A stretch of 64,000 nucleotides of DNA from Prosopocoilus inquinatus (Eukaryota > Arthropoda > Insecta > Coleoptera > Lucanidae), in NCBI GenBank assembly GCA_036172665.1, contig CM069876.1, positions 45,663,001-45,727,000 on the forward strand, written 5' to 3'. Below the pieces are notes generated by a model. It was given only the letters and a program-made list of their open reading frames with translations, had not been told where the DNA came from and did not search any database. Positions within the stretch are counted from its first letter, which is position 1; the number at the start of each line of letters is the position of its first letter. Shown here piece after piece: positions 6,600 through 62,000 of the stretch. The position numbers and the translations under genes were made by a program.

Positions 6600-7330
6600 T
6601 CTTTCGTAAATATTGTCTGCGATTGTCACTGTCATTGTGCTTTTTCTGTTTTCTTCTTTTTTTTTTTTGGTGAATTTCGAATTGCCTTTACATTTTGTCA
6701 ATTATTTTCTTGCGTTCTATATTTTTTTATTGCGATCGTCATTTGTTTCTCTTAGTTACTTTAGACCTTTCCTTTTTTTCTTTCTCTTTTGTTTTGTGAA
6801 TTTCGAATTGCCTTTAAATTTTGTTAATTATTTTCTTGCATTCTATATTTTTTTATTGCGATCGTCGTTTGTTTCTCTTAGTTACTTTAGACCTTTTCTG
6901 TTTTTCTTTCTCTTTTGTTTTGTGAATTTCGAATTGCCTTTAAATTTTGTCAATTATTTTCTTGCATTCTATATTTTTTTTTATTGCGATCGTCGTTTAT
7001 TTCTCTTAGTTTCTTTAGACCTTTGATGTTTTTCTTTCTCTCTTGTTTTGTGGATTTTGAATTCCCTTTACATTTTGTTGATTATTTTCTTGCATTCTAA
7101 ATATTTTTTTCATTGCGATCGTCATTTCCAGTTCAGTTTTATTTTTTATTTCCAGTTTTCTTTCGCTGCTTCTTTTTTCTTTTCTGTGCTTGTAAATTTC
7201 ATTTTGGGATTTTTTTTATCATAAATTACTTTTTAGAGAAATTCGAAATCTACAACTCGTTTCTGATTCTTAATTTATGTATTTCTTTTTTTTAATTATC
7301 TTCGCCATTTGTTCGACTTTTCTTATTTCC
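6600..7330 (+). repeat. Four-copy ~125 bp T-rich tandem repeat
   Basis: Four successive units begin with TGAATTTCGAATTGCC-like text at about 6670, 6796, 6921 and 7050 and continue through TATTTTCTTGC, TTGCGATCGTC(A/G)TTTGTTTC and TTTAGACC. The period is about 125 bp. The GATCGTCATTTGTTT core ties this block to the larger T-rich family. The apparent repetitive 137-residue frame here is a by-product of a repeat unit read without stops. Confidence 0.8.
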
Positions 7331-22871: not shown

Positions 22872-25800
22872 ATGCCGAGGCCCCGCCTAAAACACATCGA
22901 AGTAGAGAATTTCAAGTCGTACAGAGGTCGGCGCATCATCGGGCCCCTAAAACCTTTCAACGCTATAATCGGCCCCAATGGCTCAGGTAGGTACTCGTAC
23001 AGATTTATGCCGCTTGCAGAAAGTAGAGCTTATTCGACTGTGCATTGCAGGAAAATCGAATTTCATGGACGCCATATCGTTCGTCATGGGGGAGAAGACG
23101 ACCAGTTTGAGGGTTAAACGTTTAAGCGATTTGATTCACGGAGCTGCCATCAGCAAACCAGTATCTCGCAGGTAAATATTCTTTGCATGTATCTAAATAA
23201 TTACACTATTATATCATGCCAGATTTAGTTAGGATTCTTCAGGCATTGCCTTAATTGCGCATACCTTTTTTCGGTCCTCATACTGCCTAACATGTATTCA
23301 TTGGGCTTCTTACTGTGTAACCATACCTAAACCTGATCATGTGATAAAACTATTTTTTCTTTTACACTTTTCTGATTAAATGTACTTTCAGTGCTTCTGT
23401 GACTGCCGTGTTTATACTTGATGAAGATGAAGGCAAAGAAATTATATTTCAGCGATCTGTGCAAGGCGCTTCCTCAGAATACAGGGTTAACAACAGTGTA
23501 AGTTCAAACCTTCACCAGAATTATTTGTTTATCTGTATCATAAAAGACGTGTCTTATGGAGCATTCTTAATCAAGCCAGTTAAGAAGTGTTTAAGCGGAC
23601 ACGTACATTATTGAGCTCTGCAATCCTTCAAGTGAAGTTAGAGCGACATTTTTGCCTTATTAATTAATCTCATTGTTTTTTTTTTTTTTGTTGTAGGTGG
23701 TTTCTAATCACGAGTACATGTCCGAATTAGAGAAGCTGCGCATAAACGTCAAAGCCAAGAACTTCTTGGTGTTTCAAGGCGCAGTCGAATCAATCGCCAT
23801 GAAAAATCCCAAGGAAATGACCATACTCTTTGAGGAGATAAGCGGGTAATATCAACTGCAAACTCACGTTTTCGTGTAGACCGCCTACATAATTTTAAAT
23901 TTGTAGTTCGGGAGCTTTAAAAGAGGAATACGATCGCTTGAAACAACAAATGCAGAAGGCCCAGGAAGAAATCAACCTGGCCTATCAGAAGAAGAAGGGC
24001 ATCAACGCCGAGAGGAAGGAGGCCAGACTTGAAAAAGAAGAGGCCGATAAATATGCACGTTTAAAAGACGATTTGGTAAGCGGCGGTGATTACTAAAGTC
24101 TATTTGCGATGTACTTACTTTATTGCAGAATGACAAGTTAGTCGAGCACCAATTATTTAAATTGTTTCACAATGAGCGTGAAATGAAGAACCTGGAAGGC
24201 GATTTGAAGTCGAAACAAAGGGAAGTAGAGAAAATCGAGCGCAAAAAAGAGAAAGCCGAGGAGACTCTGAAAGAGAAGAAGAAAGAGCAGGGCCGCTACA
24301 GCCGCGAACTGGCGAAAATAGAGCAGGACATACGCGAAGTGGTCGGTTGATTCGTAACCCCCGTCGCATTTCAAGTTTTTTTTTTAATTTTGTGCTTGCA
24401 GGAGGTTGAAATATCCAAGAAGAAGCCGCAGTTCATTAAAGCGAAAGAACGCGTTTCCCACATGCAGAAGAAATTGGACGGGGCCATCAAGACGCTGGAG
24501 CAGGCAAGGAAAGCGAACGAGGCGCACATGAACGATATTCATAAATTAGAAGAAGAACTGGCGGAGGTGGAGCGCGCCAAAGATGATTATGAGACTGCGA
24601 TAGCTGGGGAATCACAGAGCCAGGGGAGAGACGTGCATTTGGAGGATGAGCAGGTGAGAGAGTACCATCGGCTGAAAGAAGAGGCTGCGAAGAGGTCTGC
24701 GAGATACATGCAAGAGCTAGATTCGGTGAACCGGGAACAGAAATCTGATCAAGATCGCTTGGATAACGTTTCGAGGTTACGCATTGAAGCCGAAAATAAA
24801 CACCGGCAGAAGGAGCATGAGAAAGAAGAGATGGAAAAGCGCATTGAAAAATTAGCTGAACACATTCGGTAAATAACAAAACGCCTTTTTGACCTTCAAA
24901 ATAAATAATTTATTCTTCCATGTGTAGTACAAGCGAGCAGGCTTTGATAGATCAACGTCAGTTAAGAGCTGACTTGCAGTCTGATGTTGGTTCATCAAAA
25001 GATCGTGTGCAGGAGATACAGAAGCAACTGGACGATGTTTTAGAGCAATTGGGGGATGCTAAAACTGACAAGCATGAAGATGCTCGCAGGAAAAAGAAAC
25101 AGGAAATTGTCGAGCGTTTCAAAAGTAATTATCCTGGTGTGGTAAGTGCTTGTAACCATCAATCAGGACTCCATATTCGAAGTTTTTTATTCTTTAAGTG
25201 ACTTTAAATTAACGTCTTGTGTGTTTCAGTATGATCGCATGATTAACATGTGTCAGCCAACGCACAAGCGTTACAATGTGGCTATCACTAAAGTCCTGGG
25301 TAAGTTCATGGAGGCCATTGTAGTTGACACGGAACACACAGCCCGTCAGTGCATTAAATACCTCAAAGAGCAGATGTTGGAGCCCGAAACCTTCCTGCCC
25401 ATTGATTATTTGCAATTGAAGCCGGTCAAGGAGAGGCTGAGGACCATTACGGAGCCTAAAGGCGTGAGGTTACTGTACGACATCCTGCAGTTTGAACCCC
25501 AGGCTATTGCAAGGGCTGTTATGTTCGCCACCAACAACGCCTTGGTCTGTGAGACGCCCGAAGATGCCATGAAGGTAGCTTATGAACTTGGAGGATCAAG
25601 ATATGACGTAATTATTTATGAAATCCAAAAGGTAGCAATTTTTTCTTTTCTATTTTGTATTATAGGCAGTGGCACTGGATGGAACTTATTATCAGAAGTC
25701 TGGAATTATTTCCGGGGGTAGTCTGGATTTGGCCCGGAAGGCCAAGCGTTGGGATGAGAAACACATGTCACAGTTGAAGGCTCAAAAGGTATATATTATA

Positions 25801-28519
25801 GATTTCGAAGAGGTTCCCACTTGATAGGGGCCTTATTCTCGATTAGAGGGAACTGCCGAAAAAAGGTGATGTCAAAATGACGTAATTCTCTTACGGTTTA
25901 TATTATTTTGTCGTTACTTTCTCTTACCGGATTGTTCCCTCATTCGAGAATAAGGTCCCAAGAAAGTCTGGGAAAAGTTTCATAATAAAGTCAGGGAATA
26001 CGTCTGCTTTAGTACAAAAATCAGTGAAAATAATTGAAGAAATGGAAATTTAATTTATTATTTCAATGTGTGCAGTGTTTTGTACGTCTAGGAAAAGTAT
26101 GAATTTATTTCCTTTTTAATTCTTAAAAACCTAATTGAAAAAATAAATTCTACCGCCTTTAGTATAGGCAACCACACATGCCGCTGAGTTCGCTGGCTTG
26201 CCTATACTAAGGCTGTTCATTGAAAAAGTCTAATGTTTTTATTTTTAGGCCAAACTGGCACGCACGTTATTAAAGTTAATTGCTCATAATTTTCAAAGGT
26301 TTATTGACAGCTTTCTCCGTTAATACACGTGAAAATTAAAAAAAAAGAATTACTAATTTTTGTGCATCGGTTATTTCTGTTCTGGAATCAATAAGAAATG
26401 GACGTAAAATCTTAATGAAAATAAAATGAGGGCCCTGTACCAACTATTTTTTTTTATTGCAATCTGTTATGCTTGTAGGAAAAGTTAACGGAAGAATTAA
26501 GGGATGCGATGAAGAAGTCGCGGAAAGAATCCGAACTCAACACGGTCGACTCTCAAATTCGGGGCCTTGAGACACGTCTGAAATACGCCAAAACCGACAT
26601 GGAAAGCACGGTAAGTAACAGAACACAAGGACATTCATCGCAATTATTAATTTAATTCGATCCACTTAGACCAAGCAGATTAAAGCTGTGGAAACGGAAC
26701 TCCTGAGACTCTCCAGCGAGATGACCCAGTACGGAGTAAGCCCCCTTTCGTTTACTTTTTAAATTTTCATTTAATCAATTTAATTTTTCAAGCCTAACAT
26801 TGCGGACATTGAGAAGACAATGCAAGTACGAGAGCAGCAGATCGAGGAAATCAAAATGAAGATGAACAGTGTCGAAGATGTCGTGTTCTCACGCTTCTGC
26901 CAGGAGATCGGGGTTCGCAACATCCGGCAGTACGAAGACAGAGAGCTGCGCACTCAGGAAGAGCGCAAGCAGAAACGGCTCGAATTCCAAAAGCAGATCA
27001 ACAGGATTTCCAGCAACTTGGAGTTCGAGCGCAGCCGAGACACACAAAGTACATAATTTTAAAATAAGTTTCTCATTCGCGTTTATTTACGATTTTAATT
27101 TGCAGATAATGTAAGTCGTTGGGAACGCACTGTGAACGATGAGGAAGAAAGACTTGAATCGTGCAAGAAACAGGAACAGAAGCAGAGGGATGAGATTGAT
27201 AAGGACCTGCGACAGATCGATCAGCTTAAAGCGGAGCGTTTGACAAAGAAGCAAGAGTGCGATAACATGGAGGATGACGTGGGCAAGGCACGACGTGAAG
27301 TTGGTTCCATTGCAAAGGATGTGCAGGCCGCTCAGAAACAAGTCGTTTCGTTAGAAGGGAAGATTGAAAGTAAGAAGAGTGAGCGACACGCGATTTTGAT
27401 GCAGTGCAAGGTAAAACTGACATTTAAATTATCAACAAAACGATCAGGTCAGATATTCTAGATGGATGACATAGCCATACCCATGTTAGTTGGCAATATG
27501 GAAGACATAGTGCAGGCAGATCCTTCACAATCATCATCATCAGTGGGAGACACCAGCAGTACTACACAACAATACGAAAGAGAAGCCAGGTAATTACCAT
27601 AATTAATTAAATCCCTCCCATGACGTTTACTTCACAAATTCATAATTTCTAGAATACAAATAGATTACAACATGCTGTCCGATAACTTTAAAGACCTGGA
27701 AGAGAAAGACGAAGTCAAGAAAACTGCCGACAAATTACTGAAATCAATACAATCTCTTCAAGACACGCTCACGAAAATCCAAGCTCCAAACATGAAGGTG
27801 AGCTATTCTTATTTATTTTAATCACAGAAGACTGCCTCATTAATAGAGACTTGTGTTTTCAGGCGTTACAAAAATTCGAACTGGCCCAAGGCAAGCTTCA
27901 ATCCACCAACAAGGAGTTCGAGTCTCTCTGTAAGCAAAACAAGAAAGCCAAGGCTGCCTTCGAGCGCATCAAACAACAGAGATACGAGCGTTTCACTCGT
28001 TGCTTCGATCACGTCTCCAATGAGATCGATAACATTTATAAATCTCTGGCTCAGAATCAGTCTGCGCAGGCGTTTCTGGGGGCTGAGAATCCCGAAGAGC
28101 CTTACTTGGATGGCATCAATTATAACTGCGTGGCCCCCGGGAAAAGATTTCAACCGATGTCGAACTTGTCCGGTGGTGAGAAGACGGTGGCTGCGTTGGC
28201 CTTGCTCTTTGCCATACACAGCTATCAGCCTGCGCCCTTTTTCGTTCTTGATGAGGTTGACGCGGCCCTGGATAACACCAACATAGGAAAAGTGGCCAAG
28301 TATATTACGGAGAAAACTGAGTCGCTGCAGACTATTGTTATCTCCCTGAAGGAGGAATTTTATTCGCATGCGGATGCCCTCATTGGAATTTGTCCACAGG
28401 TAATAAAGAAAGCGGAATAATTTGTGGGGGGGATTTTAAATTGCTTTTGGTTTCAGCCTGCCGAGTGCTTGGTGAGCCAGGTTTTAACTTTTGACCTTAC
28501 GAAGTATCCATATTCTTAA
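22872..28519 (+). CDS. SMC1: SMC1 cohesin ATPase, copy A
   Basis: A core subunit of the cohesin ring, which pairs with SMC3 at the hinge and bridges to kleisin through its ATPase heads. I assembled 18 exons: 22872-22986, 23051-23171, 23392-23497, 23697-23845, 23907-24075, 24129-24341, 24402-24868, 24928-25141, 25230-25607, 25666-25788, 26479-26610, 26670-26735, 26793-27048, 27106-27410, 27462-27589, 27653-27797, 27863-28399 and 28457-28519. They total 3687 nt, 1228 aa (human SMC1A is 1233). Walker A is [14 protein letters not shown], split by intron 1. A coiled coil precedes the hinge (exons 9-10, [18 protein letters not shown]), and the head ends with LSGGEKT, Walker [12 protein letters not shown] and the conserved [10 protein letters not shown] tail. 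Reading through the last donor would give a short false end (VIKKAE), so the final exon was added. Copy B follows in tandem. Confidence 0.95.
25827..25959. mobile_element. MITE-like inverted repeat in SMC1-A intron 10
   Basis: The ends GGGGCCTTATTCTCGA and TCGAGAATAAGGTCCC are near-perfect inverted repeats enclosing about 100 nt, with a second matching pair (GAGGGAAC and GTTCCCTC). A related left end (GGGGCCGTATTCTC) occurs in the duplicate at about 21857. No target-site duplication could be confirmed. Confidence 0.65.
26164..26340. repeat. TAGGCAACC hairpin satellite monomer in SMC1-A intron 10
   Basis: TAGGCAACC pairs with GGCTTGCCTA about 30 nt later, forming a potential hairpin followed by TACTAAGG. 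After it come TTCATTGAAAAAG, TTTTTAGGCCAAACTGGCACG, TTTTCAAAGG and TTAATACACGTGAAAATT. The same string of landmarks makes up the monomers of the 42.66-45.22 kb array, so this is a solitary monomer of that family. A second copy is at 22084-22260. Confidence 0.75.
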
Positions 28520-29332: not shown

Positions 29333-32300
29333 ATGTCGGCGGTACGCGTGAAACGCATAGCGATCGACAATTTCAAATCGTTCAAAGGATTGAATGTTGT
29401 GGAGAAATTCAAAGACTTGACCGCCGTAATTGGACCTAATGGATCAGGTGAGCCGCACAAGCTCTCTTGTTGTTGTTGTCGTCATTGTTTATTGTTACCA
29501 TCGAATTTAAATGTTGTTGCAGGAAAATCGAATTTCATGGATGCCATCTGCTTTGCCGTCGGTGAAAAATCGAGCGGCTTACGGATGAGTAGGTTGGCGG
29601 ACCTCGTACACGGATCTGTTGTAAAACAACCGATTTCTCGCAAGTAAGTACAATTTAGCTAATCGTTAGGTAATAGGAGTAGTTAAATTATAATTACGCG
29701 ACCAAAATCAGTCGTGTAGGGTAGAAGTGTTAGATATTGATTTTAAAAGTTCAAATTTGGCGCTCAAAATACCGCCGCAGAGGAGTGCGGTTCAAATAAA
29801 GTAGCCAGCATACATGACGCGCGCCACCGACGCTCATAAGTATAACTAACTTATAACAATCACATGATTAGTAACAAAAAGTGTGATTTTTCTTTATTTT
29901 TCTTCAGAAAGGTTAGTGTAATGTTCACCAAGATAACAGTTGAATGGGGGGGAGGGGGTTGACAATGGGCGCGTTCAGCGGCTGAGTTCAGCGATGATTG
30001 GCTCACATGAAGGTAATAGCCAATCATAAACGACTGCTGAGTAAGCAACGCATCCGCTGAACGCGCTCAATCTTTTTTCGTGGTTTTCGTGGATTTCTGA
30101 ATATTGTAACGTTCAGAAATTTGAAATCAACCAATCACGAATAGGGTCCCGGACGCCGGAGGTGTGGAAACCTAGCATAACTTTAATCTCCTGTTAGTAA
30201 TAATTACGAAATTAATTATGGGAAAAAATTGAAGATTAAAGTTAAACTATTGTATGACCGATGAGTCTGATGACAGAAAATGTCCGTTAGTCGATGTTAC
30301 CACAGAATTCTGTGGTGTTGCGGTGTTGCCGTTTTATGTGTTGCCAACTGTACGAGTACGAACTTTCGGCATGAAATGGAACTATAATAAGGGAAAATTA
30401 TTATAGTTTTTCTTTGTACCTTTTATTTATTGTTAAGTGTGGCTGGCGATTTTTAAGATCATTCTAATACCATGCGATCATCGGAATTTATAATTAGAGC
30501 AGTCAGTGATATTTTCCAAAAAGTTGGCAACAGGCTTACAGTTTGAAATTAAAAAAAAATTAAATATCAGAATTGTGACATTTTTTTTTAATGATTGATA
30601 ATAAATGGATTTGTCTTGTGGAGCCCCCGCTAATATTCTAAAAATGATTCAAACCGGCATCCATACAAAATAAAATAACAAAATAAAGATTGTATAAAGC
30701 ACGAACATAACCTCAAATATGAGAACTGTCAACGCATCATTTATTTCTCATTGTACCCAACCACAGAGCATAAAATAGCACCAATCACAGCTAATCCTCT
30801 AATTATGAATTCCATTGATCACCCGGTATAATCCCCGTGGAACGGAAGTACACCACTTTTACCGCTGTTCAAAAAATTGAAACGCAAAGTCGACTCAAAG
30901 AGAAAATATACAACGTGATCAGTAGTGACTGTCCATGCCTCTATTTTAATTTACGGATATTATGTGACCAGATTATGTATTTCGGGTGTCGTTTTCTCTT
31001 GTTTTTTGTTCATTTCATGTTCTTCATTTCTCTTTTTGTTCTTTTTTTTTTAAAGAATTGATGTTTTGCATTTTATTCATTCGTTTGTTTTAGTTTGTTC
31101 TTTTGTTTCCTGTCAGTTTCATGTCTTGCAAAAGTTTTCGCCCGGAAATTCGCCGTTTTTTCATTTGTTTTTTGTCTGTCCCTTCTTCTGTCTCTGTTTC
31201 TGTTTTTTCTGTTTCTGGCATTCTTCTCTCGAATTGGTTTTCGCATTTTATTCGCTCCTCCAGTTCTCTTTTGTTTCCTACGAGTTTATTTTTATTTGCA
31301 AAGACGTTCGTCGTCGGTTTTCATTTTTTCTTGTCCATTTTTTAAATTCGTTTTTCTCTTTTGTTTATTTTTACAATATCAAATTGAATTTGCACATTTT
31401 TTTATGGTTGTCTTTTGTTTTCTACTCTTTTTTTTTTAAAGTTTTGTCTGGAGATTCATTTGTTTTTTTGGTTCATCTCAGTCTTAATTTATATTCAACT
31501 CTCGTTTTTCTCTTTTGTTTATTTTTGTCTTATTGATTTTTCACGTTTTCTACGTTTTTTTTCTTTTTTTTAGTTTCCGTCTGAAAATTCATTTGTTTTT
31601 TTGTTTATCTTGGGACGGATTTCATAATCGAACCACAGGAGATTTTAAAATAAAGGTCACCATCTGATGTATAAATAACTACATTTTGGCATCTTTTTGG
31701 ACATATGACTGTGACTTTCATTTTAAAGTCTCCTTTAGTTCGATTATGAAATCGGGCCTAAGTCTTAATTTTCTTTTGTTTTTTCCGTTCTTTATGCTTT
31801 TGTACACTGTGGAATTCTCTTTTGCTCTTCTTATCGATTGACTGCTCATTTCATTAGCGCTTTTTCGTAGTTCATCGTTTTTCATTATTTTTTTTTGTGT
31901 CCGTCACAGTTGTGATCTTCGTTTGTTTCATGCATTGTATTTCGTCGTTCTTCGTTTCTTTTTTTCGTTTTTTTTATTTTATCGTATTGCAGTTCATTGA
32001 ATTACAGTTTATCGTTTTTCATTTATTTTGTGTCAATCACAGTTGTTATCTTCTTTTGTTTTATGCACTATTGCACTGTATTTCGTCGTTCGTTTTCTTT
32101 TTCGTTTTTTTTTATTGTATTATAGTTCATTGTATTATAGTTCATCGTTCTTCATTTGTTTTGTGTCCGTCACAGTTGTGATCTTCTTTTGTTTTATGCA
32201 CTGTATTTCGACGTTCGTTTCTTTTTTCGTTTTTTTATTGTATTATCGTTCATTGTATTGTAGTTCATCGTTTTTCATTTGTTTTGAGTCAATCACAGTA

Positions 32301-35300
32301 TTTCGTCGTACGTTTCTTTTTTCAAAAAATTTTGTGCAAATCGTTCTTGATTGCAGTCGCTATTTTATCTGTTCCTTTTTTCGTTTTTTCTTATTGTATT
32401 GTTGACTTTTTTATATTTTACAGTTTGCCTTATTGATTCGTTTGGAGAACTTGGTGTTGTCGATCTTCTGTTGTTTTTGTTTCTCGCTTCACGCCTTGTA
32501 TTTTGTTGCTGTTTCTTTAATTTATCTTTTGTTTCTGTTTTTTTTTTCTTATTATTCGTATATCTTTCTCTTTCGGTTCCTTTCTGCTTTACGAGCTTAC
32601 GGGACACATATTAACTCCCTCTTAAATTGACAGACTTTCTTTTAGTTTAAATTCCAATTAAAAAAAAAAAACTCGACAGTTCATTTGTGTCGAGTAAAGA
32701 TAAAATAAGTGCAGTTTACTTGATTTATTTACTCTTATGTCGAAGTGAAGTATTTAAATTTTTTCTGTATATTACTTCGTGCATCTTGAACTGAAGAAAT
32801 CTGAGAAATCAATAATCTGTCGGTAATTGTATATGAGCCGGGGGAAAGCAAGGTTAACTCTCGAAAAACACTGCGTAATTTCGACGGAAAAACTCAAAGC
32901 TTTGGCGCCCAACACGGAGTGTCGGTTAATAAAGCAGCAATAAATTTGGCGCCCAACTTGAAAGCGTCTTACTAACACATTAGTAACTGCATTATCGCCG
33001 CCAAACTGCTTGTCGTTTACAAACTGATTTTAATTTGTTTACCCAAACAAACAAAATATGGTATGTAAGGTATTAAAATATTATTATTAATATGATTTGG
33101 CTGTTTATTACACCGTTTATTCAGAAAACTAGGATTATTTAAATCATGTCTAGTGTTATGTAATTATGTATTACAGAAATAATCACTTCAGAAAGTACGA
33201 TATTGTTAATTTAGTTTCAGTTTAAACAACGAGAGCGACAGAATATTATCATCATCAACAAACTCAGCTAGACATTGCATGGTTGCAACTTTATTTCATA
33301 TATGAGAGATCACAGCACAGGGGTGTAATAGGTAGAATACGGTCCTGAATACCTTCCTTTTCTACAATAATTTTCGTATAGCAATAGCTAGCTATCACAC
33401 TCATACCTACTACTTTGCGTAGCAATCCTGAAGTATCCGTTAGGCTAGCTATCACATACCTACCTACTGTGATTTCCTTTCATTAATACTTTCTTCACGA
33501 TCCCTATTGTTTATAAATATGATCTCTATTCGTTCCTCCACCTTAGTGCTTCCGTGACAATTACTTTTGAAAACGTCGAAACCTCAGAAGAGTTAGTATT
33601 CCAGCGTTCGATTCGAGGCAACTCTTCTGAGTACAAGTTCAATGACGAGGTAAGTCTCGGTGCTAATATTATCTTCTGCCTAAATATAAATATTTAATGA
33701 TTTCATTCATTTGGTATAAGGTGGTTAGCCACGGTGAATACGTGAAACAGTTGGAAACGATCGGAATAATGACGGGGGCAGGCAATTGCTTTGTGTTTCA
33801 AGGCGCTGTCGAATCGATTGCTATGAAACACCCCAAGGACATGACGAAGATGTTTGAGGAAGTCAGCGGGTGAGAGAATCAGGAGGGTAAGGGGGAAGAA
33901 GCAGATAATCATCGCTCTTCTTCATCTTGCAGTTCTGCAGAATTAAAGGAGCAGTATAACAGATTGAAGGCGCAAGTTGAGGAAGGGCAACAGAAACTAA
34001 GCGTGACACTCCGAAGGAAAAGGCATTTGATATCGGAGTGTGCGGAAGCCCATAAGCAAGGAAAGGCCGCCCAACAGTACCTACAAGATTTAAACGACTT
34101 GGTACCTTTCGTTACGCACTGACTTTTTCTTTACTGAACGCACTCAACGATTCTGTTTTAGAATAAAACGTTAACGACACGCTGCCTCTTCAAATTATTC
34201 CACAACGAACGCCAAATTAAGAAGCTCGAGGGTAGTTTGAGGTCGCAGCGAGACGAGCTTGAGAAACTCGAGTCGGGGGAAGTCGCAAAGGCCGAGGAAG
34301 ACCTGAGAAGCGCAAAGAAAGATTTGGGAAAGCACGATCGGGATTTGGCGAAGACAGAACAAGACATTCGAGAAGCTGTAAGTTAAAAAGAAGAAAATTA
34401 GTTATGATTGTTAATCGTTTTCATCAAGTTCCTGCGCGTGAGAATTGCAGAAAGGATATCAAACAAATAAGACGATACTTTAATAATAATAATAATAGTA
34501 ATCGTATTTATTGGTCCAGAAGCAGTACATACAACTTGGACAGGTCATACTTATGCATAATACTAGAGAGAAATGAGCTAAAATTAATTTTTATTACTTG
34601 GACGTCTTGCAAACAGGATTGTTTGCTTTTTTAAAAGCGAATGAATAACGAAATAATGTTAACAGGAGGTGGAACTCGGAAGGAAGAAATCTCAGCTGGT
34701 GAAAGCCAAAGAAGAGGTCTCCCACATCCAAAAGAAACTGGAGGGTGCTCTGAAAACTCTGGAAAGCGCCAGGAAAGCAGATGAGGCGCAAGCCGAAAGT
34801 ATTCGTAAATTGGAAGAGGAGTTAGCCGAGGCGAACCGAGTCAGACAAGAATACGAGGCTGAAATTCTAGAGGAATCGCAGAGTCAGGGTGTGCAGATCG
34901 AAGAGCAAGACGTTCATGAGTACGGCCGGTTGAAAAGTGAGGTTGCCAAGAGGACAGCCCGGATAATGCAAGAGCTGGAGTCGATTAACCGAGTGATTCG
35001 ATCCGAACAGGATCGGTTGGATAACGTGGATAGATTAATTGCCGAGTCTCAGGATAAATTCAACCAAAAAGAGCAGGAAGAAAAGGAATTGCAAAGAAGG
35101 GTTACCACCTTGTCGCAAGTAATCCAGTCAGTACTCCAATTACCAATTACTTCGTGCGGTTTTGAAAATTCATTTTCGTTTTTAGGGCAAGCGAAGAAAC
35201 CCTAGCCGACAAACACAAGCAACGCACAGAGTTACAATCGGGGGTGGTGGCTTCGAGAGAGCGCCTCGAAAACATGCAGGCACAACTGGAAACCGTCATG

Positions 35301-38300
35301 GAGCAAATCGGGGATGAGAAAATAAACAAATACGAAGAGGAACGCAGGAAAAGGAAGGCCAGCATCGTCGAGCAGCTTCAAGTCTTCTACAAAGGAGTGG
35401 TACGCTGTGCTTTTTAAAAATTTTAATTCAATGTGTTATAGTCATGGTCAATTTTGCCCTCCGCATAGTACGGCCGGATGATTGATTTGTGTCAACCGAC
35501 GAATTCGAGGTACAACATCGCATTCACCAAGGTTTTCGGGAGCAACATGGAAGCGATTGTTGTTGACAGCGAGCAGACGGCACGTCGTTGCATCAAATAC
35601 CTCAAAGAGCAAAGGCTGGGTCGAGAGACCTTCCTCCCTGTCGACTACGTCCAGTATAAACCAATCAAAAATAAGCTCAGAGACATTACACAACCGAAGA
35701 ACGTCTATTTACTGTATGACCTTCTGGCTTTCGAGCCGCAGGAAATAGCTCCGGTTGTTTTGTACATCGTCAGCAACGTCTTGGTTTGCCAGACGCCAGA
35801 AGACGCCTGTAAAGTCGCTTATGAACTCGAAACAAGAAATAACGTACGTTGAGACGCGCGACTTCTTGAATTTGCTCGCCTTAAATCGATTAAATTGTAG
35901 GCGGTTGCTTTAGATGGGACGTATTATCAAAAATCCGGGATAATTTCCGGAGGCACTGTTGATCTGGCCAGGAAGGCGAAACGTTGGAATGAAAAACATA
36001 TGGCGCAGTTGAAGGAGGAAAAGGTAAAAAAACATCTCATCACGCCTTTAAAAAAAATATATATATATATAGGCAATCCATTCTACTTCCGTGCGTTGCG
36101 TTTTGACAACGCCAAGTTGTTTCCGATTTGATTGATGGATTGCCTAGTCTACTAATCTTTTCGGGGGACACGAGTCGAATGCTTGTGAGCAAAAAAAAAA
36201 ATATTTGAACCAAATTTAGGAGAAACTAACTTATATAGGCAACCCATTCTACTTCCGTGTGTCAACGCCAAGTTGTTTCCGACTTGATTGATGGGTTGCC
36301 TAGTCTAATCTTTTCGGGGGACACGAGTTGAATGCTTGTGAGCATAAAAAAAATATTTTTACAAAATTTAGGAGAAACTAACTTATGTAGGCAACCCATT
36401 CTACTTCCGTGCGTTGCGTTTTGAAAACGCCAAGCTGTTTCCGACTTGATTGATGGGTTGCCTAGTCTAATCTTTTCGGGGGACGCGAGTTGAATGCTTG
36501 TGAGCAAAAAAAATATATATTTTTACAAAATTTAGGAGAAACTAACTTATATAGGCAACCCATTCTACTTCCGTGCGTTGCGTTTTGACAACGCCAAGTT
36601 GTTTCCGACTTGATTGATGGGTTGCCTGGCCTAATCTTTTCGGGGGACACGAGTCGAATGATTGTGAGCAAAAAAAAGGAAATTTTTACAAAATTTAGGA
36701 GAAACTAACTTATATAGGCAACCCATTCTACTTCCATGCGTTGCGTTTTGACAAAGCCAAGTTGTTTCCGACTTGATTGATGGGTTGCCTAGTCTAATCT
36801 TTTCGGGGGACGCGAGTTCAATGCTTGTGAGCAAAAGAAAGAGAAATTTTTACAAAATTTAGGAGGAACTAACTTATATAGGCAACCCATTCTACTTCCG
36901 TGCTTTGCGTTTTGACAACGCCAAGTTGTTTCCGACTTGATTGATGGGTTGCCTGGTCTAATCTTTTCGGGGGACGCGAGTTGAATGCTTGTGAGCAAAA
37001 AAAAATATATATTTTTACAAAATTTAGGAGAAACTGACTTATATAGGCAACCCATTTTACTTCCGTGTGTCAACGCCAAGTTGTTTCCGACTTGATTGAT
37101 GGGTTGCCTAGTCTAATCTTTTCGGGGGACGCGAGTTGAATGCTTGTGAGCAAAAAAAAATATATATTTTTACAAAATTTAGGAGAAACTGACTTATATA
37201 GGCAACCCATTTTACTTCCGTGTGTCAACGCCAAGTTGTTTCCGACTTGATTGATGGGTTGCCTGGTCTAATCTTTTCGAGGGACACGAGTCGAATGATT
37301 GTGAGCAAAAGAAATTATATTTTTACAAAATTTAGGAGAAACTAACTTATGTAGGCAACCCATTCTACTTCCGTGCGTTGCGTTTTGACAACGCCAAGTT
37401 GTTTCCGACTTGATTGATGGGTTGCCTAGCCTAATCTTTTCTGGGGACACGAGTTGAATGATTGTGAGCCAGAAAAAAAAAATTAACAAAATTTAAGAGA
37501 AACTAACTTATATAGGCAACCCATTCTACTTCCGTGTGTCAACGCCTAGTTGTTTCCGACTTGATTGATGGGTTGCCTGGTCTAATCTTTTCGGGGGCAC
37601 GAGTCGAATGCTTGTGAGCAAAAAAAAAACATATTTTTACAAAATTTAGGAGAAACTAACCGAAGAATTACGAACTGCAAGGACGGACTCACATAAACAA
37701 TCCGAGATAGTTCTGCTCGACCTACATATTGATGGCCTGGAAAAGCGACTTAAATATTTCAGAACTGACTTAGAAAATACGGTACGTAATCCAAAAAAGT
37801 TATTAATCATTTTTTTTTAATTATCGTCTTTTGTCTCGTAATTTGTTTTTTTTTTGCAGAGGACTCCGTTTGGTTTTAATTATTATTTTTTTTTAATCAT
37901 TGTGTATGTTTGTAGGACGACTTCTGTTTCTTTTGTTTTTCTTAATCGGCCGCTATTTGTTTTCATCAAGTAATCGCTCTCAATTGTTTATTAAATTTTC
38001 ACAAACTGGTCTGATTTTAATTAATTTTTTAAAAATCATTGTTTATGTTTGTAAGCCGGCTCCTTTTTCTTTTGTTTTCTTTTTCAATCATTCGCAGTTT
38101 GTTTTCATCAAGTTATCGCTCTCAATTGTTTATTGATTTTCCACAAACTGATCTTTTTTTGGGCGGAGCTAGGTTGCATAGTATACTTGGGTTGACCTTG
38201 AAATGCGTTGGACTTAATTTGAAAGCATTTGTTTGAGTTTTCATTTTTTAAAATTAATTTCCTTGGCTGGGTAGTTATGTTGATTTCAGTTGGGTTGGCC

Positions 38301-39249
38301 TTGAGTCGAATTGGACTTAATTCCATACTTGTCTGGACTTAATTTTTATTAAGTTTTAACTTTTTGCTTAGATTGAGAAGAGTTAGGTTATGTTGTCTGG
38401 ATTGGGTAGTTATGTTGAGTTCAATTGTATTGACCTTGAGCCGAATTGGACTTAATTCTATACTTGTCTGGACTTCATTTTTATTAAATTTTAACTTTTT
38501 GCTTGGTTTGAGAAGAGTTAGGTTATGTTGTCTGGATTGAGTTGACCTTGAGACGAGTTGGAATTAATTCGTACTGATTGTTATTTTTTCTTAAATTTTT
38601 AATTTAGTTGGCTGTACAGAATTAGGTTGTATTGAGTCGGTAGACCTTGGGTTGAGTTTGTATTGAGCTGGTAGACCTTAGACAACTGGGTTGACCTTGA
38701 GTCTGATTGGACTTAATTCTTTACTTGTCTGGGCTTGATTTTTATTAAGTTTTAACTTTTTGCCTAGATTGAGAAGAGTTAGGTTATGTTGTCCGGATGT
38801 CTGAATTGGGTTGACCTTGAGACGGGTTGGACTTAATTCATATTGACCGTTATTTTTTTCTTAAATTTTTAAATTTAGTTGGCTGTACAGAGTTGGGTTG
38901 TATTGAATTGGTAGACCTTGGGTTGAGTTTTATTTTATTTTATTTTTTGGTTGGAGAGAGTTAGGTTGAGTTTGGTCGGGTTGACCTTGAGACGGGTTGG
39001 ACTTAACTTATACTTTTAATTTTTCGAGTTCAAACTTCAACTTTTTAATTTTCTTGAGCTTTAAATGTGTCTTGGATTGAGTTGAGTTGAGCTGAATTGG
39101 ACTAAATTCCAACGGAGTATTTTTTTAAAGCTTGGCATTTATTTACTTTGAATCCTTTCCTGTATTTAATTTTTTTTTTTAGGTTATACCTACTAATTCC
39201 AGCTAATTCTAATTCACTTTTAATTTTTTGAGCTTTTGAGTTTTTTTTA

Positions 39250-39285
<36 letters not shown>

Positions 39286-42200
39286 TAAGTGGGCTGGTCT
39301 TAATTTTTATTAAATTTTAATTCTTCACTATCTGCTCAGTTTTATTTCATTTTTTTTGAGTTTCATTTTCTTGCTTGGCTTGAATTGAACGGTTGGTGTA
39401 TTTAATTCCCGTTAAGTTTTCACTTTACGAGTTAATTTTGAGCTTTAATTATCCCGAGTTAAAAAAATTGAGCTTTAAGCGTGTCTCGAGTTGAGCTAAG
39501 AATTAATTCCAATAGATTTTTCTGAGTTTCCAATTTGTTTAATTTGAGTCATGAACTTCTTCTACGTTGGATTAATTCCAATTAAGTTTTTCTTTTGTTT
39601 TCAGTTTTGAAACTTGAAGTTTTTTGGGTTTTAATTTTTTGTTTTTTTAATTCAATAAGTCGGCTATTGTGTATTCTATTTTTTACTTTGTCTCATTAAT
39701 TTGTTCTTATTTGTTGTCAATTATCTCTTAGGTTTTTTAAATTTTATTAAAAAATTTTGTTGCAATGTCAGGTCAAAAAGCGATCGTAAGATGTCGCTTA
39801 ATGTAGAAGATCTCATTCTTTTTTAATTTAATTATCTGTTAATCCTAATTGTTTTTAATTTTTTTTTCTCCTTCAACTGCCTTGATTTTCGCGACGGTTC
39901 TTCTTCTTCTTTTTTTTTTGAATTTCATATTGTAATTTTAATGATTAATTATGAGTACAAGATACTTTTTCTTTGTTGATTTTTTTTAAAGCAAAAACGC
40001 ATTATTTTTTTAATTTATTTACTGTTTATTATTCAGAGTAATTGCCTGTCAATTATCACTTCGGTTTTCGTTAAATTGTTGATTTCATTTCTTTTTAATT
40101 AATTTTTAATATTTAGGAGTACAAATCAGAATAAAAAAAATCAGGAACCCAAGTCATCCTCTTTCTATTATAGTTATTTATTTATTTGTTAATTGTTTTA
40201 ATTCCAGAAAATCAACAGAAAATGTTTTATTTTCATTTTAATCAACCGCTAATTGCTTTTCATTTTTTTTATTATTCACTATGACAGCCCGTCAATTGTT
40301 TCTTTTTACTCTTGTCGTTTTTATTTTGAAATTGATGTTACCTCCGCTTGCAATGAATTTGATCATGTCTTATTTAATCGTATATTTTTATTATTTTTTC
40401 AATACAGAAAAGTGTCGTTCATTTTTTTTTCTCGCTCTCTCAGGAATTTGCAATTTGTTTTTTTACAATCCTTTACACTACAATCATAACTTCTTGTTTG
40501 GTTTGTTTTAGTTCTTTTTACTTAACTTGCTTTAATTTAACAACAAACAACTTTCTCGCTCTTCACAATCACTTCTTCTTCTTCACTATTTTTAAATATT
40601 GTTGTGTGATCAAACCAAATCAAGTGTCAAATCATTAAAACGAAAGTTGTTTTGCAGAAAACACGCCAACAGAGCAACAAAACGGAACTGTCAAGACTCA
40701 CAGAAGAAATCAACAATTACAAAGTAAATCTCACTCCCTTAGGCCCACCGAACACAATCATTTAATACTCATTGACTTTCCAGCTTAACGCAGGAAGCAT
40801 CCAACAAGCCATACAATCCAACGAGCCAAAAATACAGGAATTAGAAGCAAAATTAAACGGTATAGAAGACACGGTCTTCGCTAACTTCTGCCGACAAATC
40901 GGAGTACTCAACATCAGACAATACGAAGACAGAGAATTACTAATACGAGAGAAATACAAACAGAAGCGGCTTGATTTGCAGGCTCGAATCGATAAGATTT
41001 CCAACTTGCTGATATTTGAGCGCAACCATGCAACGCATGGTAAAAAATCCATTTTCTTCACTTTCACAAAATTACTTTCGTTCTTTCAGCGAACGTCACT
41101 CGTTGGACTGATGCGGTCGAAGCAGAGCAAAAAAAACTTGACAAGCACAAGAAACACCAACAGAAAACGAAGGACGATGTGAATACGGCTTCGCAAGAGG
41201 TGGCCCGCCTTCAAAACGAACACTCACGGAAAACCCAGGCAGGCAACACGATGAAAACGCAAGTCAACAAAGCAAAGAAAACCTTCAATAACTTAAACAA
41301 GAAAGTGCAGGACACGCACAAGCAAATAATACTATTGGAGTCGAAGATAGAACAAGGAAAGAGTGAAAGACATGGAATTTTAATCGATAGCAAAGTAAGA
41401 TTACAATCGTAATGAAGTGGGTTCGCTTTTTATTATTTTTTTTTTGTTTGAGGTTGACGGATTGGATTTGCCTTTGCTAGCCGGAAATATAGAAGAGATC
41501 GCTGAGTCCGGCCCCTCCCAAACCTCTTCGTTGGACCTAAGCAGCTCAATCAGGCAATACGAAAAGGAAGCCGGGTAAATCCCCCCCACACACAAGATTT
41601 ACTTGAACTAACTTTACTGTACTCTTTAGTCTTGAGTTCGATTACAGTGACCTACCAAAAAAACTGAAGAGCTTGGTTGATGAGAAAGAAATCGCAAACG
41701 CTTCCGATAAACTACTTCAAGAAATCCAATCGAAGCGTGACTTGCTCTCGCAGGAAATACTCAACACTAAAGTATGTTGGGTGATGGATGGCTTATTCAC
41801 TGATTTGAATATTACACAATTAAATAATTTTAGGCCGATGAAAAACTTCGAAGTCTCCAGCAAGAGCTGAAGCAAGAGAACGAAGCGTACAACAAAATAA
41901 AAAAGGACATCAAGAACGCCAATCAGGAGTTTGTCAGGGTCAAGGAGCAGCGCCTTGGACTCTTCGATGCTTGCTTCCAGCATGTATCGAATGAAATCAA
42001 GAATATCTACAAGGAGCTTACGAGGTGTGAATATGCCAAGGCGATTCTGAGCGCTGTCAACGAAGAGGAGCCGTACTTGGGGGGCATCAACTATCACTGC
42101 ACCGCACCGGAGAAACGGTTTCAGATGATGACGAACATGTCCGGGGGGGAGAAGACTTTGGCAGCGCTGTCTCTGGTGTTTGCCATACACAGCTATAAAC

Positions 42201-42543
42201 CTGCACCGTTCTTGGTCCTCGATGAGGTGGATGCTGCCCTGGATAAGGTGAACATCGCCCAAGTCATCGGTTACTTGAAGAAGAGGTCTCAAGCCATGCA
42301 GATCATCATTATATCTTTGAAGAAGGAGTTTCATGCCAGTGCTAAGCTGCTTATTGGACTTGACGCAAAAGTAAGATCCTTTTTCTTTATAATATTGGTT
42401 AATTAAGTTCCACAATTTGTAAAATGTCTTTCCTGTTTGATAAAGACTTGACATTTCTGAAACTGGAAAATGATTTGACAAAATAGGAAAACGTAATTGA
42501 CAAAAGGAAAGACCAATCAGATACACAAATAACTACGAAATGA
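29333..42543 (+). CDS. SMC1 cohesin ATPase, divergent tandem copy B
   Basis: A second full-length SMC1 in the same orientation. Exons: 29333-29447, 29523-29643, 33547-33649, 33721-33869, 33933-34101, 34162-34377, 34666-35126, 35186-35399, 35469-35843, 35901-36023, 37650-37781, 40658-40723, 40784-41039, 41090-41394, 41453-41574, 41630-41771, 41834-42370 and a tentative 42487-42543. The sum is 3663 nt, 1220 aa, with every intron at the same position and phase as copy A. Walker [15 protein letters not shown], hinge [18 protein letters not shown], signature MSGGEKT and Walker [12 protein letters not shown] are intact, so it should be an active ATPase. The coiled coils are strongly diverged. The last exon is uncertain: ENVIDKRKD fits in frame but lacks the [10 protein letters not shown] tail. 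Introns 2 (3.9 kb), 10 (1.6 kb) and 11 (2.9 kb) are inflated by repeats. It could be a germline/meiotic form like vertebrate SMC1B (inference). Confidence 0.9.
29967..30067. mobile_element. MITE-like inverted repeat in SMC1-B intron 2
   Basis: GGGCGCGTTCAGCGG at the left and CCGCTGAACGCGCTC at the right are inverted repeats. Inside them, ATGATTGGCT and AGCCAATCAT form a second pair. The total is about 100 bp. No clear target-site duplication is seen. Confidence 0.65.
30960..32620 (+). repeat. T-rich repeat array in SMC1-B intron 2
   Basis: This is the same plus-strand T-rich family, with CTTTTGTTT and GATCTTCTTTTGTTTT words throughout. Short tandem units with TCATCGTT(T/C)TTCATTTG recur between about 31870 and 32330. 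Its left border (about 30900-31000: ATACAACGTGATCAGTAGTG, then TCTATTTTAATTTACGG) is homologous to about 2770-2850. None of its open frames is a credible protein. It lies within the transcribed strand of the SMC1-B gene. Confidence 0.75.
31612..31759. mobile_element. Hairpin MITE-like element
   Basis: GGATTTCATAATCGAAC at the left pairs with GTTCGATTATGAAATC at the right, and GGAGATTTTAAAAT pairs imperfectly with ATTTTAAAGTCTCC inside. It is about 148 bp and is inserted in the T-rich array of SMC1-B intron 2. The right end reads ATCGGGCC, a terminus similar to that of the element at 58891-59016. Confidence 0.7.
32621..33546. other. Remainder of SMC1-B intron 2
   Basis: A+T-rich intronic DNA follows the T-rich array. 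A short direct repeat, CTAGCTATCACA(C/T) followed by ATACCTAC, occurs at about 33388 and 33442. No coding exon is seen. The intron ends with the acceptor CACCTTAG at 33546. Confidence 0.45.
36071..37649 (+). repeat. Ten-unit tandem array of decoy splice acceptors, SMC1-B intron 10
   Basis: Units start with AGGCAACC at 36071, 36237, 36389, 36553, 36716, 36880, 37045, 37200, 37353 and 37514 (152-166 bp each). Every unit contains an inverted pair (AGGCAACCCATT and TGATGGGTTGCCT), then CTAATCTTTTCGGGGGAC, AATGCTTGTGAGC, an A-rich run and ACAAAATTTAG followed by GAGAAACTAAC. That last string is the true exon 11 acceptor and the first 11 nt of exon 11. Decoy acceptor AGs precede 36220, 36372, 36536, 36699, 36863, 37028, 37183 and 37336; the ninth (about 37497) is mutated to TTTAAGAG; the tenth (37648-37649) is the genuine site. 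Some units (2, 7, 8, 10) lack about 11 nt in the TTCCGTG(CGTTGCGTTTTGA) section. Confidence 0.92.
38160..39010 (+). repeat. Degenerate repeat with seven TGACCTTGA (NR5A-like) motifs
   Basis: In SMC1-B intron 11, a degenerate tandem sequence repeats GGTTGACCTTGAG, TTGGACTTAATTC, GTCTGGACTT, TTTTTATTAAGTTTTAACTTTTTGC and AGAAGAGTTAGGTTATGTTG. TGACCTTGA (or TGGCCTTGA) occurs at 38193, 38296, 38431, 38543, 38692, 38812 and 38982. Its complement TCAAGGTCA is the consensus site of FTZ-F1/NR5A and ERR nuclear receptors. The same repeat appears again at 55.48 and 55.92 kb. Confidence 0.7.
39011..40657. other. A+T-rich remainder of SMC1-B intron 11
   Basis: T-rich intronic DNA with an (ATT)n microsatellite at about 39250-39285 and scattered simple runs. 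The frames at 40253-40511 are hydrophobic low-complexity peptides and are not supported. The intron ends with acceptor TTTTGCAG at 40657. Confidence 0.5.
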
Positions 42544-53379: not shown

Positions 53380-54730
53380 CGTGGTGATAAAAAAACAAAA
53401 CAAAAGCGAATCATTAATTAATCATGCAAATGTTATTAATTTGACATTTGACAGTTTTGTCGAGGTGAACCATTGCCTTTTAGTAAGAGAGGTAATAAGA
53501 CAAAAAAATAAAAAAAATCGCCGATTTGGAATGTATCAAAAATCAGAACAAAATAAAAGAAACAAACTAAATTTCAAGGCATGAAACGAAAGAAAAAACA
53601 AAAGCAGATCGACACCAAGCTGAACGAAAAACAACTTGTTGTTTGTTTTTTGCTAAAAATAAGAACAGAAAGGAAAAAAATATTAAGCAAAGAACAATAA
53701 ACCTACGCTTATATAAGATAATATGATTAAAAAGCAAAAACTAATAAAAATATCGCCGATTTGGAGTATCACAAATAAAAACAAATAAAAGAAACAAATG
53801 AAACCTATAAAAAATCAGAAACAAGAGAAATGAAAGAAACGGCAGTAAAGTACAAGGCATGAGGCAAAAAAGAAAAAAAAAAAACAAAAGAAGATCGATA
53901 CAAGGCCGAACGAAAAAAACATGTTAAAAATAAGAGCAGAAAGGAACACAACAAATTTCAAGCAAAAAACACACAAAAATACGCGAATAATCAGATAAAA
54001 AACCGATTTGGAGTATCAAAAGTCAAAACAAAAAAACAAGAAACAAATGAAACCTACAAAAAAAAAACAGAAACAAGAGAAACGAAACAAACAGCAGCGA
54101 AATACAAGGCACGAAGCGAAAGAAAAACAAAAACAAAAGAAGATCGATACAGAGCCGAACGAAAAGCATGCTAAAAATAAGAGCAGAAAGGAAGTAAAGA
54201 AATTTCAAGCAAAGAACAAATATACCTACACGAAGAACAAGATAAAAAAAACAGAAACTAATAAAAAAAAGTCGCTGATTTGAAATATCGAAAATCAGAA
54301 CAAATTAAAGAAACAAATGAAACCTGCAAAGAAAGTCAGAAACAAGCTCGCAAACAAGAGAAATGAAAGAAACAGTGTTGCAAAATGTAAGGCACGAAGC
54401 GAAAGAAAAAACAAAGAAAAAAAAACAAAAGAAGATCGACGCCAAGCTGAACGAAAAATAACGTTTTCCAAACGAAATAAAAACTTCATAGAAAGCGAAA
54501 GCAACTTGTGTAAAAGTCAGTAGTGCCATAAAAGAAACGAAAAAAAGAAATAAACGATAAAATACATTTCGTAAAACAAAAGAAAATTAAAAAAAAGCGA
54601 AAAATCAATTCGATAAGAAAAGCGAAAGAGAAATACCTATATACAAAGTACGAAAGCAAAAACACAAGAAAAGATGCAAAAGAAGGTCGACAATCAAGCT
54701 GAACAAAATACAAATAAATTTCCAGATATA
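53380..54730 (-). repeat. T-rich family array in reverse orientation (A-rich on plus)
   Basis: The complement of the T-rich family: AACAAAAGAAGATCGA occurs at about 53597 (as AACAAAAGCAGATCGA), 53883, 54133 and 54426. Around each lie ACAAGGC(A/C)(T/C)GA(A/G)GC(G/A)AAA and GAACGAAAA. Units of about 250-290 bp repeat four times. Lysine-rich frames on plus and Phe-rich frames on minus are compositional artefacts. Confidence 0.75.
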
Positions 54731-60130: not shown

Positions 60131-60185
<55 letters not shown>

Positions 60186-62000
60186 AATATTTCTTCCGCG
60201 TTTACATAACTTCATCGATCGTCTTTTGTTTTTGTTGAATATTTTTAGATTCATTCTACCGTTCGCTTTTTGTTCTTCGTTTCTTTGAATAAAGACGGAT
60301 TTTCTTTTTTTTGTATTTTTTTACTATTTTTTTTTCTTTTTGTTTTCATTGATTCCCTGTCGGTAACGCAAAACGTAACACAAAGAACGAACAACAACAG
60401 AGCGAAACAAAAAATGACAAACGAAATCAAACAAAAGACGATCGACGTTTTTTTCACTTTTGTTTTAGTTCCATCCATCGATTTTCATTTTCTTTGTCGG
60501 CCTTCTTTTGTTTTATCGTTTATCTTTTGCTTTATTCCATCGTTCGCCATTTTTCTCCTTATTTGCGTTTCCCGTTTTTTTTTTTTTTTTTTTTTAATAA
60601 ATATTTCGTCCGCGTTTACAAAACTTCATTGGTCGTCTTTTGTTTTATTTTTTTAAATATTTTCAGATTCATTCTACCGTTCGCTTTTTGTTCTTTGTTT
60701 CTTTGGATTTTTATTTAATTCGATGGATTTTCTTTTTGTATTTCTTGACTGTTTTTTTTTTCTTTTTGTTTTCATTGATCTCCTGTCGGTAACGCAAAAC
60801 GTAAAACAAAGAACGAACAACAACAGAGCGAAACAAAAAATGACAAACGAAATAAAACAAAAGACGATCGGTGTCGTTTTATTTTATCTTTTTTTTTTTA
60901 CTTTTATTTTAGTTCCATCCATCGATTTTCATTTTCTTTGTCGGCTCTCTTTTGTTTTATCGTTTATCTTTTGCCTTATTCCATCGTTCGCCATTTTTTC
61001 TCCTTATTTGCTTTCCCGCTTTTTTTTAATAAATATTTTACATTTTATTTTGTTGAATATTTTTAGATTCATTCTACCATTCGCTTTTTGTTCTTCGTTC
61101 CTTTGGATTCTTATTTAATTTAATGGATTTTCTTTTCTCTTGTATTTCTTGACTGTCTTTTCTTTTTGTTTTCATCGGTCCCCTGTCGGTAATACAAAAA
61201 GGAAAGCAAAGAACAAACAACAACAGAGCGAAACAAATAATGATAAACGAAATAAAACAAATGACGGTCGATGTCATTTTATTGTCTTTTTTGACTTTTT
61301 TTAGTTTCATGGACCGGTTTTCATTTTTTTTTGTTTTACTGCTTGTCCTTTGTTTTATTCCAACGTTCACCGTTCTTTTCGTCATTTGCACTTCCCGTTT
61401 TCTTTTTTGTATTTTTATTTTTTCTTTTAATTTCGTTGATCGCCTTTCGTTTTCGATTTTTATTTAACTTAATCGATTGTCCTTTTTCTTTTTGTACTTA
61501 TTAACCGTTTTTTTTCTTCTTGTTTTGTTGTTTCGTCACTTGCTTTGCTTTGTTTTGTTTTCGTTTGCATTTAATCTAATTTTATTATTATATTCATTTT
61601 ATTTTATTAATTTTATTTTCTGTTTCGTTATTTTCGTCTTTTATTTGCATTTTTGCGTTTAAATTTTTGATTTTTATTGTTCCTTTTTTTTAAAAAAAAA
61701 TTATTGGTCGTCCCTTGTTGCTTCATTTTATGGATTATTTTGTGTTTGACTCTCTCGCTCTCACTTTTAGTTTTTCGCTTGCGCCACCCTCCTCCTTCAT
61801 AATTTTTTTGATTTTTATTATTTAATTTCAACGATCTTTCCTTATTTCTTTTACTGACTTATTATTCTCCTCTAGCTTTATTTTATACAAATTTCGTCTC
61901 TTGTTTTATTTTGTTGCCCGTCTCTGTTTTCATTTACGTCAAATTTGTTCTTAATCTAATTTTATTGTTCCTCTTTTCCTATTATTTTTTTTTGGCGATA
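59230..62000. repeat. T-rich array with both orientations, interior of the hAT-like element
   Basis: Units here pair a forward motif (CGATCGTCTTTTGTTTT) with an inverted one (AACAAAAGACGATCG), so each unit can fold. Inverted copies are at about 59330, 59505, 59755, 59975, 60430, 60860 and 61250. Two larger copies, 60220-60620 and 60640-61020, are nearly the same (CATTCTACCGTTCGC, ACAAAGAACGAACAACAACAG, AGTTCCATCCATCG). A T run of about 50 nt is at 60130-60181. Confidence 0.8.

Follow-up and report, generated by a model that had tools for sequence, protein, structure and literature searches.

Intron 10 of SMC1-B, a diverged cohesin gene of the beetle Prosopocoilus inquinatus, is filled almost entirely by a tandem array of ten units, each closing with a duplicate of the exon 11 acceptor plus 11 nt from the start of that exon. 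We consider it probable that this array is a mobile-element-containing 'mirage', that is, a minisatellite with units that extend across an intron-exon boundary, and that transcripts are mostly spliced to its last acceptor. With a true acceptor preceded by nine false copies of itself, the locus amounts to a natural experiment on how an acceptor is distinguished from nearly identical sequence.

The window, by which we mean the whole 64-kb stretch of DNA that was analysed, contains two SMC1 genes, which according to the gene models are head-to-tail tandem paralogues. The upstream gene, SMC1-A (22872..28420, + strand; 16 exons, 1192 aa), is the canonical beetle SMC1A, as indicated by its gene model, by 88% identity to the SMC1A of Tribolium and by Pfam, where SMC_N is found over the cut-off in the last exon and slightly under it in the first (38.2 vs 40). 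SMC1-B (29333..42406, + strand; Pfam, spliced model and tree) likewise has 16 exons, three of which carry SMC_hinge and SMC_N matches, and its open frame comprises 1191 aa, with a C-terminus and gene end at about 42406 that are uncertain. It is 52% identical to SMC1-A, about 50% identical to the beetle SMC1A proteins that top its listed matches, and at most 50% identical to any of the 120 database matches listed. The 15 introns of SMC1-A match the 15 of SMC1-B, and all 30 are of the GT-AG type; the shortest measures 50 nt and 22 of the 30 fall between 50 and 88 nt, while introns 2, 10 and 11 of SMC1-B extend over 1.6-3.9 kb and each contain tandem repeats. In a midpoint-rooted tree of 28 rows (the two window proteins and 26 hand-chosen sequences of the 120 homologues listed, 94 being left out), SMC1-B is placed nearest to SMC1-A with a terminal branch of about 2.0 changes per column vs 0.048 for SMC1-A, a length that makes its placement unsure. 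Motifs which we take to be the P-loop, the signature (MSGGEKT) and Walker B are visible in its translation. Judging from branch length and gene structure, SMC1-B is a very fast-evolving tandem duplicate of SMC1A whose frame is open and whose introns have all been retained. A second SMC1A-like protein also exists in the dung beetle Onthophagus taurus, at 71% identity to SMC1-A (matches P0011 and P0052), and it looks like an independent duplicate because it groups with the SMC1A of its own species.

Intron 10 of SMC1-B (36024..37649, + strand; 1626 nt in the gene model) sits at the position equivalent to intron 10 of SMC1-A (25789-26478), between the end of exon 10 at 36023 (AAAAG/GTAAAA) and the start of exon 11 at 37650 (TTTAG/GAGAAACTAACCGAAG). 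The array itself (36066..37660, + strand) was delimited by TRF, with a period of 164, 10 copies, 89% matches and a score of 2386, and by unit alignment; both agree with an earlier sequence-only reading, which had described ten units closing on a copy of the acceptor and 11 nt of exon. Each unit consists of an element core, a right arm, an intron tail, the acceptor and the 11 nt of exon 11, or, in terms of its sequence, of a conserved core (GGCAACCCATT...GATGGGTTGCC), a right flank, the motif GTGAGC, an A/T-rich tail and TTTAG/GAGAAACTAAC. The units are 146-166 bp long and differ from each other by 2.7-10.4% in pairwise comparison; the final GAGAAACTAAC of the array is the genuine start of exon 11 (EKLT...). 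Three bases kept by unit 1, CTA, are absent from units 2-10, which therefore probably descend from one copy. Since exon 11 of SMC1-A starts alike (GAAAAGTTAACGGAAGAATT) and the opening string of SMC1-B exon 11, EKLTEEL, is shared by 94 of the 120 SMC1 homologues listed, copying appears to have run from the exon into the intron. The proposal that a repeat had captured an exon-intron boundary was thus right, as the unit spans the acceptor together with 11 nt of exon 11.

All ten acceptor copies lie on the + strand. Decoy 1 (36200..36230; weight matrix), whose AG ends at 36219, is followed by GAGAAACTAAC. Acceptor scan and weight matrix locate decoys 2 (36352..36382), 3 (36516..36546), 4 (36679..36709) and 8 (37316..37346), with AGs ending at 36371, 36535, 36698 and 37335, respectively. 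Decoys 5 (36843..36873), 6 (37008..37038) and 7 (37163..37193) were placed by unit alignment and weight matrix; their AGs end at 36862, 37027 and 37182, and their exon copies read GAGGAACTAAC from 36863 and GAGAAACTGAC from both 37028 and 37183. Decoy 9 (37477..37507; unit alignment and weight matrix) is broken, with AA for AG at 37496. The true acceptor (37630..37660; gene model, weight matrix and homologues), an interval that takes in 11 nt of exon 11, ends its AG at 37649; the exon opens with EKLTEEL. Eight of the nine upstream copies have accordingly kept their AG, the number given from the sequence alone, and six of the nine carry the 11 nt of exon without a single change. Reading on from any of the nine upstream acceptor positions leads to a TGA after 23 or 25 codons, in keeping with the 20-26 codons or so that had been foreseen.

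In its sequence, most of each array unit is a dispersed, MITE-like inverted-repeat element of about 150 bp, which the earlier reading had not recognised. Using the array as query against the 650 Mb assembly and scoring 40 of 173 candidates, the element was found at at least 39 further places (at least 46 matches outside the window); it is present as a single copy at 35 of the 39, and three to five copies stand in a row at the other four (L026, L027, L028 and L046). The consensus was built from the 35 single-copy places, the 4 multi-copy ones being left out, following a first profile made from 17 copies. Mean column conservation among the single copies is 0.88 in the core (81 bp), a value inflated because it was by the core that the places had been located, 0.74 and 0.73 in the outer arms, and 0.51 in the flanks; the two arms are inverted repeats of each other, with agreement at 43 of 50 consensus positions, as counted from the alignment. 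The element thereby displays the dispersed copies with terminal inverted repeats by which MITE or foldback elements are recognised; inspection of its ends by eye established no target-site duplication. A decayed left arm (36033..36071, + strand; profile match from 36035 and consensus alignment) lies directly 3' of the exon 10 donor and is present only ahead of unit 1. The core of unit 1 (36070..36146, + strand; profile and unit alignment) has the inverted ends GGCAATCCAT and ATGGATTGCC around an inner loop, and nine more cores follow downstream; the core hairpin of unit 3 (36388-36477) folds at -27.1 kcal/mol with a z of -3.8. In the stem of unit 1, T replaces C at 36077 and A replaces G at 36139; these positions face each other, and pairing inside the unit is therefore retained. 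Rfam at gathering thresholds matched no known RNA family in the 64-kb window. Once the array and the element are subtracted, the leftover pieces of intron 10 come to about 50 nt (counted), like the 22 of the 30 introns that measure 50-88 nt.

Splice sites were scored with local weight matrices for donors and acceptors, derived from 29 of the 30 introns of both genes with intron 10 of SMC1-B left out. The true exon 11 acceptor reaches 3.1 bits, the eight intact decoys 1.9-3.6 (the lowest being decoy 1) and the broken decoy -3.7; of the 3086 AGs that the + strand of the window contains, 502 score at least 3.0. Because the decoys score like the true site and such scores are not exceptional, the acceptor motif cannot separate the true from the false copies; the true acceptor is itself weak, with 8 of the 29 other real acceptors scoring lower. 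On the donor side, GTGAGC occurs in ten of ten units, as had been stated, but its supposedly constant 5' neighbour AATGCTT is present in seven of them and replaced by AATGATT in three. Its description as a good donor needs correcting, since by score it looks weak, at 3.4-4.0 bits and thus at the low end of the 29 other donors of both genes, 28 of which reach at least 4.0. GTGAGC lies 33-37 nt ahead of the acceptor of its own unit and 186-201 nt from that of the next; a cassette would need the latter, because 33-37 nt is below every intron seen. Of the original interpretation, part is supported, namely the capture of the boundary and the decoys that score like the true acceptor; the donor looks weak, and the splicing sink or switch is a candidate role.

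The sequence behind the acceptors was compared by a 4-mer score over the 60 nt that follow the first 11, a measure of exon-likeness which was trained on the two genes only and partly reflects coding (27 real exons and the introns were included, exon 11 was left out and exons under 118 nt were excluded). Exon 11 scores +0.59, the nine decoys -0.06 to -0.30 and the 27 other real exons +0.03 to +1.12; among 134 intron windows, the median is -0.79 and the 75% quantile -0.31. The context of the decoys falls in between, below all 27 real exons yet above about three quarters of the intron windows. Over the first 118 nt, exon 11 folds at -12.5 kcal/mol and the decoys, mostly through the hairpin of the element, at -29.0 to -37.2 kcal/mol; six of the 27 real exons, at -30.3 to -34.2 kcal/mol, fall inside the decoy range, and two of the nine decoys fold scarcely better than shuffles (z -0.5 and -0.8). 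Against regular splicing, the use of a decoy is favoured by intron length, because the nearest one would give an intron of 196 nt, vs 1626 nt for the true acceptor, in genes where short introns dominate.

Poison exons and splicing decoys introduce early stops when they are used. The beetle decoys resemble them in that each of the nine positions would bring a premature TGA; they differ in the weakness of the GTGAGC donors, and their use or regulation is a candidate only. Closer parallels come from the 'mirages' of amphioxus, tandem repeats across intron-exon boundaries in the globins BflGb6 and BflGb9, in Adh3 and in TnC, and in imperfect form in PGBD5 (PMC3087553; PMC3902484). The unit of BflGb6 is 150-160 bp long and combines the 3' end of an intron with the 5' part of an exon, and two haplotypes carry 6 and 3 copies of it; many, not all, of the mirage copies retain splice signals, and the authors call the generating mechanism unclear (PMC3087553). 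RT-PCR of BflGb6 suggests that regular splicing is unaffected, with the authors allowing that some copies could be cryptic sites (PMC3087553), and the Adh and TnC mirages are stated to yield no aberrant mRNAs (PMC3902484). The beetle units equally cross the boundary with splice signals, eight of the nine upstream AGs being kept; unlike the amphioxus cases, they occur in an insect, number ten, and consist mostly of a dispersed inverted-repeat element, of which the available portions of the amphioxus reports make no mention (PMC3087553; PMC3902484). In Drosophila virilis, the foldback elements Tetris and TIR-220 are described as supplying satellite units (PMC4079207), so that an inverted-repeat mobile element serves there, too, as building block of tandem arrays; the satellites there are kilobase-sized and heterochromatic, whereas the beetle array is short, intronic and includes host exon sequence. 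By its anatomy, then, the beetle array is a member of the known mirage kind, to which it adds a mobile-element-like unit. Among the papers found that mention mirages, minisatellites and introns, one of which deals with pines, none concerns insects by its title, and titles and abstract beginnings on decoy sites, beetle SMC1 duplication, splice-site proximity, the element sequence and insect acceptor arrays yielded nothing usable.

The array suggests a possible origin for a mirage, namely the duplication of a mobile element, lodged in a short intron, along with the boundary. As its likeness to the other places in the genome shows, a MITE-like element of about 150 bp sat in a short intron of SMC1-B. 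A tandem duplication would then have taken in a segment that starts within the left arm of the element, crosses the element, the rest of the intron and the acceptor, and stops 11 nt into exon 11, and the structure of the units is consistent with amplification to ten, be it by slippage or by unequal exchange. Splicing of the pre-mRNA most likely joins 36023 to the last acceptor at 37649. The acceptor motif gives no mark of the right copy, and the difference lies in the exon body behind it: after 11 nt the decoys pass into the element and its hairpin, and the true site continues into exon-like sequence that folds weakly and opens with CGAAGAA. Context and folding of exon 11 and of the decoys are computed, and their effect on splicing is what we infer from them. 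Some leaky use of decoys may be expected, and owing to the early TGA the resulting transcripts would be removed by nonsense-mediated decay. Probably the array has no effect or does slight harm and is tolerated in a fast-evolving paralogue; because similar lancelet arrays are reported with normal splicing, it is probably a genomic curiosity and not a switch.

The same splice-site data could be read as a regulated sink or switch, in which the exon 10 donor would be diverted to decoys in some tissues, sending the transcripts to nonsense-mediated decay and thereby tuning or silencing SMC1-B, for example outside the germ line. The comparable scores of intact decoys and true acceptor, the TGA downstream of every decoy and the position of the first decoy, closer to the exon 10 donor than the true acceptor, are consistent with such a function, but each of the 27 real exons surpasses the sequence behind the decoys in exon-likeness, the GTGAGC donors are weak and mispositioned, and normal splicing is reported for the amphioxus mirages (PMC3087553; PMC3902484), so that we regard it as rather unlikely. 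That the sink is length-variable, with the number of decoys setting the loss of SMC1-B mRNA to nonsense-mediated decay, seems unlikely; if true, individuals or tissues would receive different doses of a fast-evolving cohesin paralogue. The pairing of docking and selector sequences in the Dscam exon clusters offers a model for looping out, by which the lone left arm near the exon 10 donor might pair with one of the ten right arms and bridge the array. The arrangement of a single left arm and ten correctly oriented right arms, every one of them shortly ahead of an acceptor, and a core stem able to pair inside or between units would suit this model; all units have the core stem, however, and it offers no choice, which leaves the model extremely improbable. 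The docking-selector candidate was rejected on its outer-arm duplexes, which are no stronger than shuffles for ten of ten arms (58-157 of 200 mononucleotide shuffles did as well or better).

Two further readings concern the array and the gene themselves. Tandem arrays are error-prone in assemblies, and the array could be an artefact, or real with an uncertain number of units; against this, the units stand 2.7-10.4% apart with unit-specific changes, the one assembly holds a single near-identical place, the next best match reaching 86% (40 of 173 candidates scored), and other such arrays exist in the genome, which makes an artefact highly improbable. SMC1-B might also be a dying gene in which the array has already blocked correct splicing, as its long end branch and the long, repeat-bearing introns 2, 10 and 11 would allow, but a frame open over 1191 aa, GT-AG ends in 15 of its 15 introns and the presence of P-loop, signature and Walker B in the translation speak against this, and we consider it very unlikely. 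A mirage that contains a mobile element and is mostly spliced to its last acceptor remains the reading that we prefer.

Arrays that include the element are also found elsewhere. TRF arrays with a period of at least 90 contain it at four of the 39 places (L026, L027, L028 and L033), a small number obtained with the array as query, and the profile detects three copies in a row at L046. For comparison, tandem arrays cover 1269 of 43841 flank bases (2.9%) and, with the intron 10 array excluded, 3773 of 64000 window bases (5.9%). Set against this background, the few places in arrays leave the element a conjectural inducer of tandem duplication. Unit lengths in the element arrays of L026, L027, L028 and L046 are about 381, 279, 232 and 185 bp, the last from profile spacing only. 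The window itself is rich in local tandem duplications with TRF periods of 97-469 bp, such as those at 4157-4636, 6642-7127, 31868-32299, 37874-38154, 38268-38539, 53756-54273 and 60161-61027.
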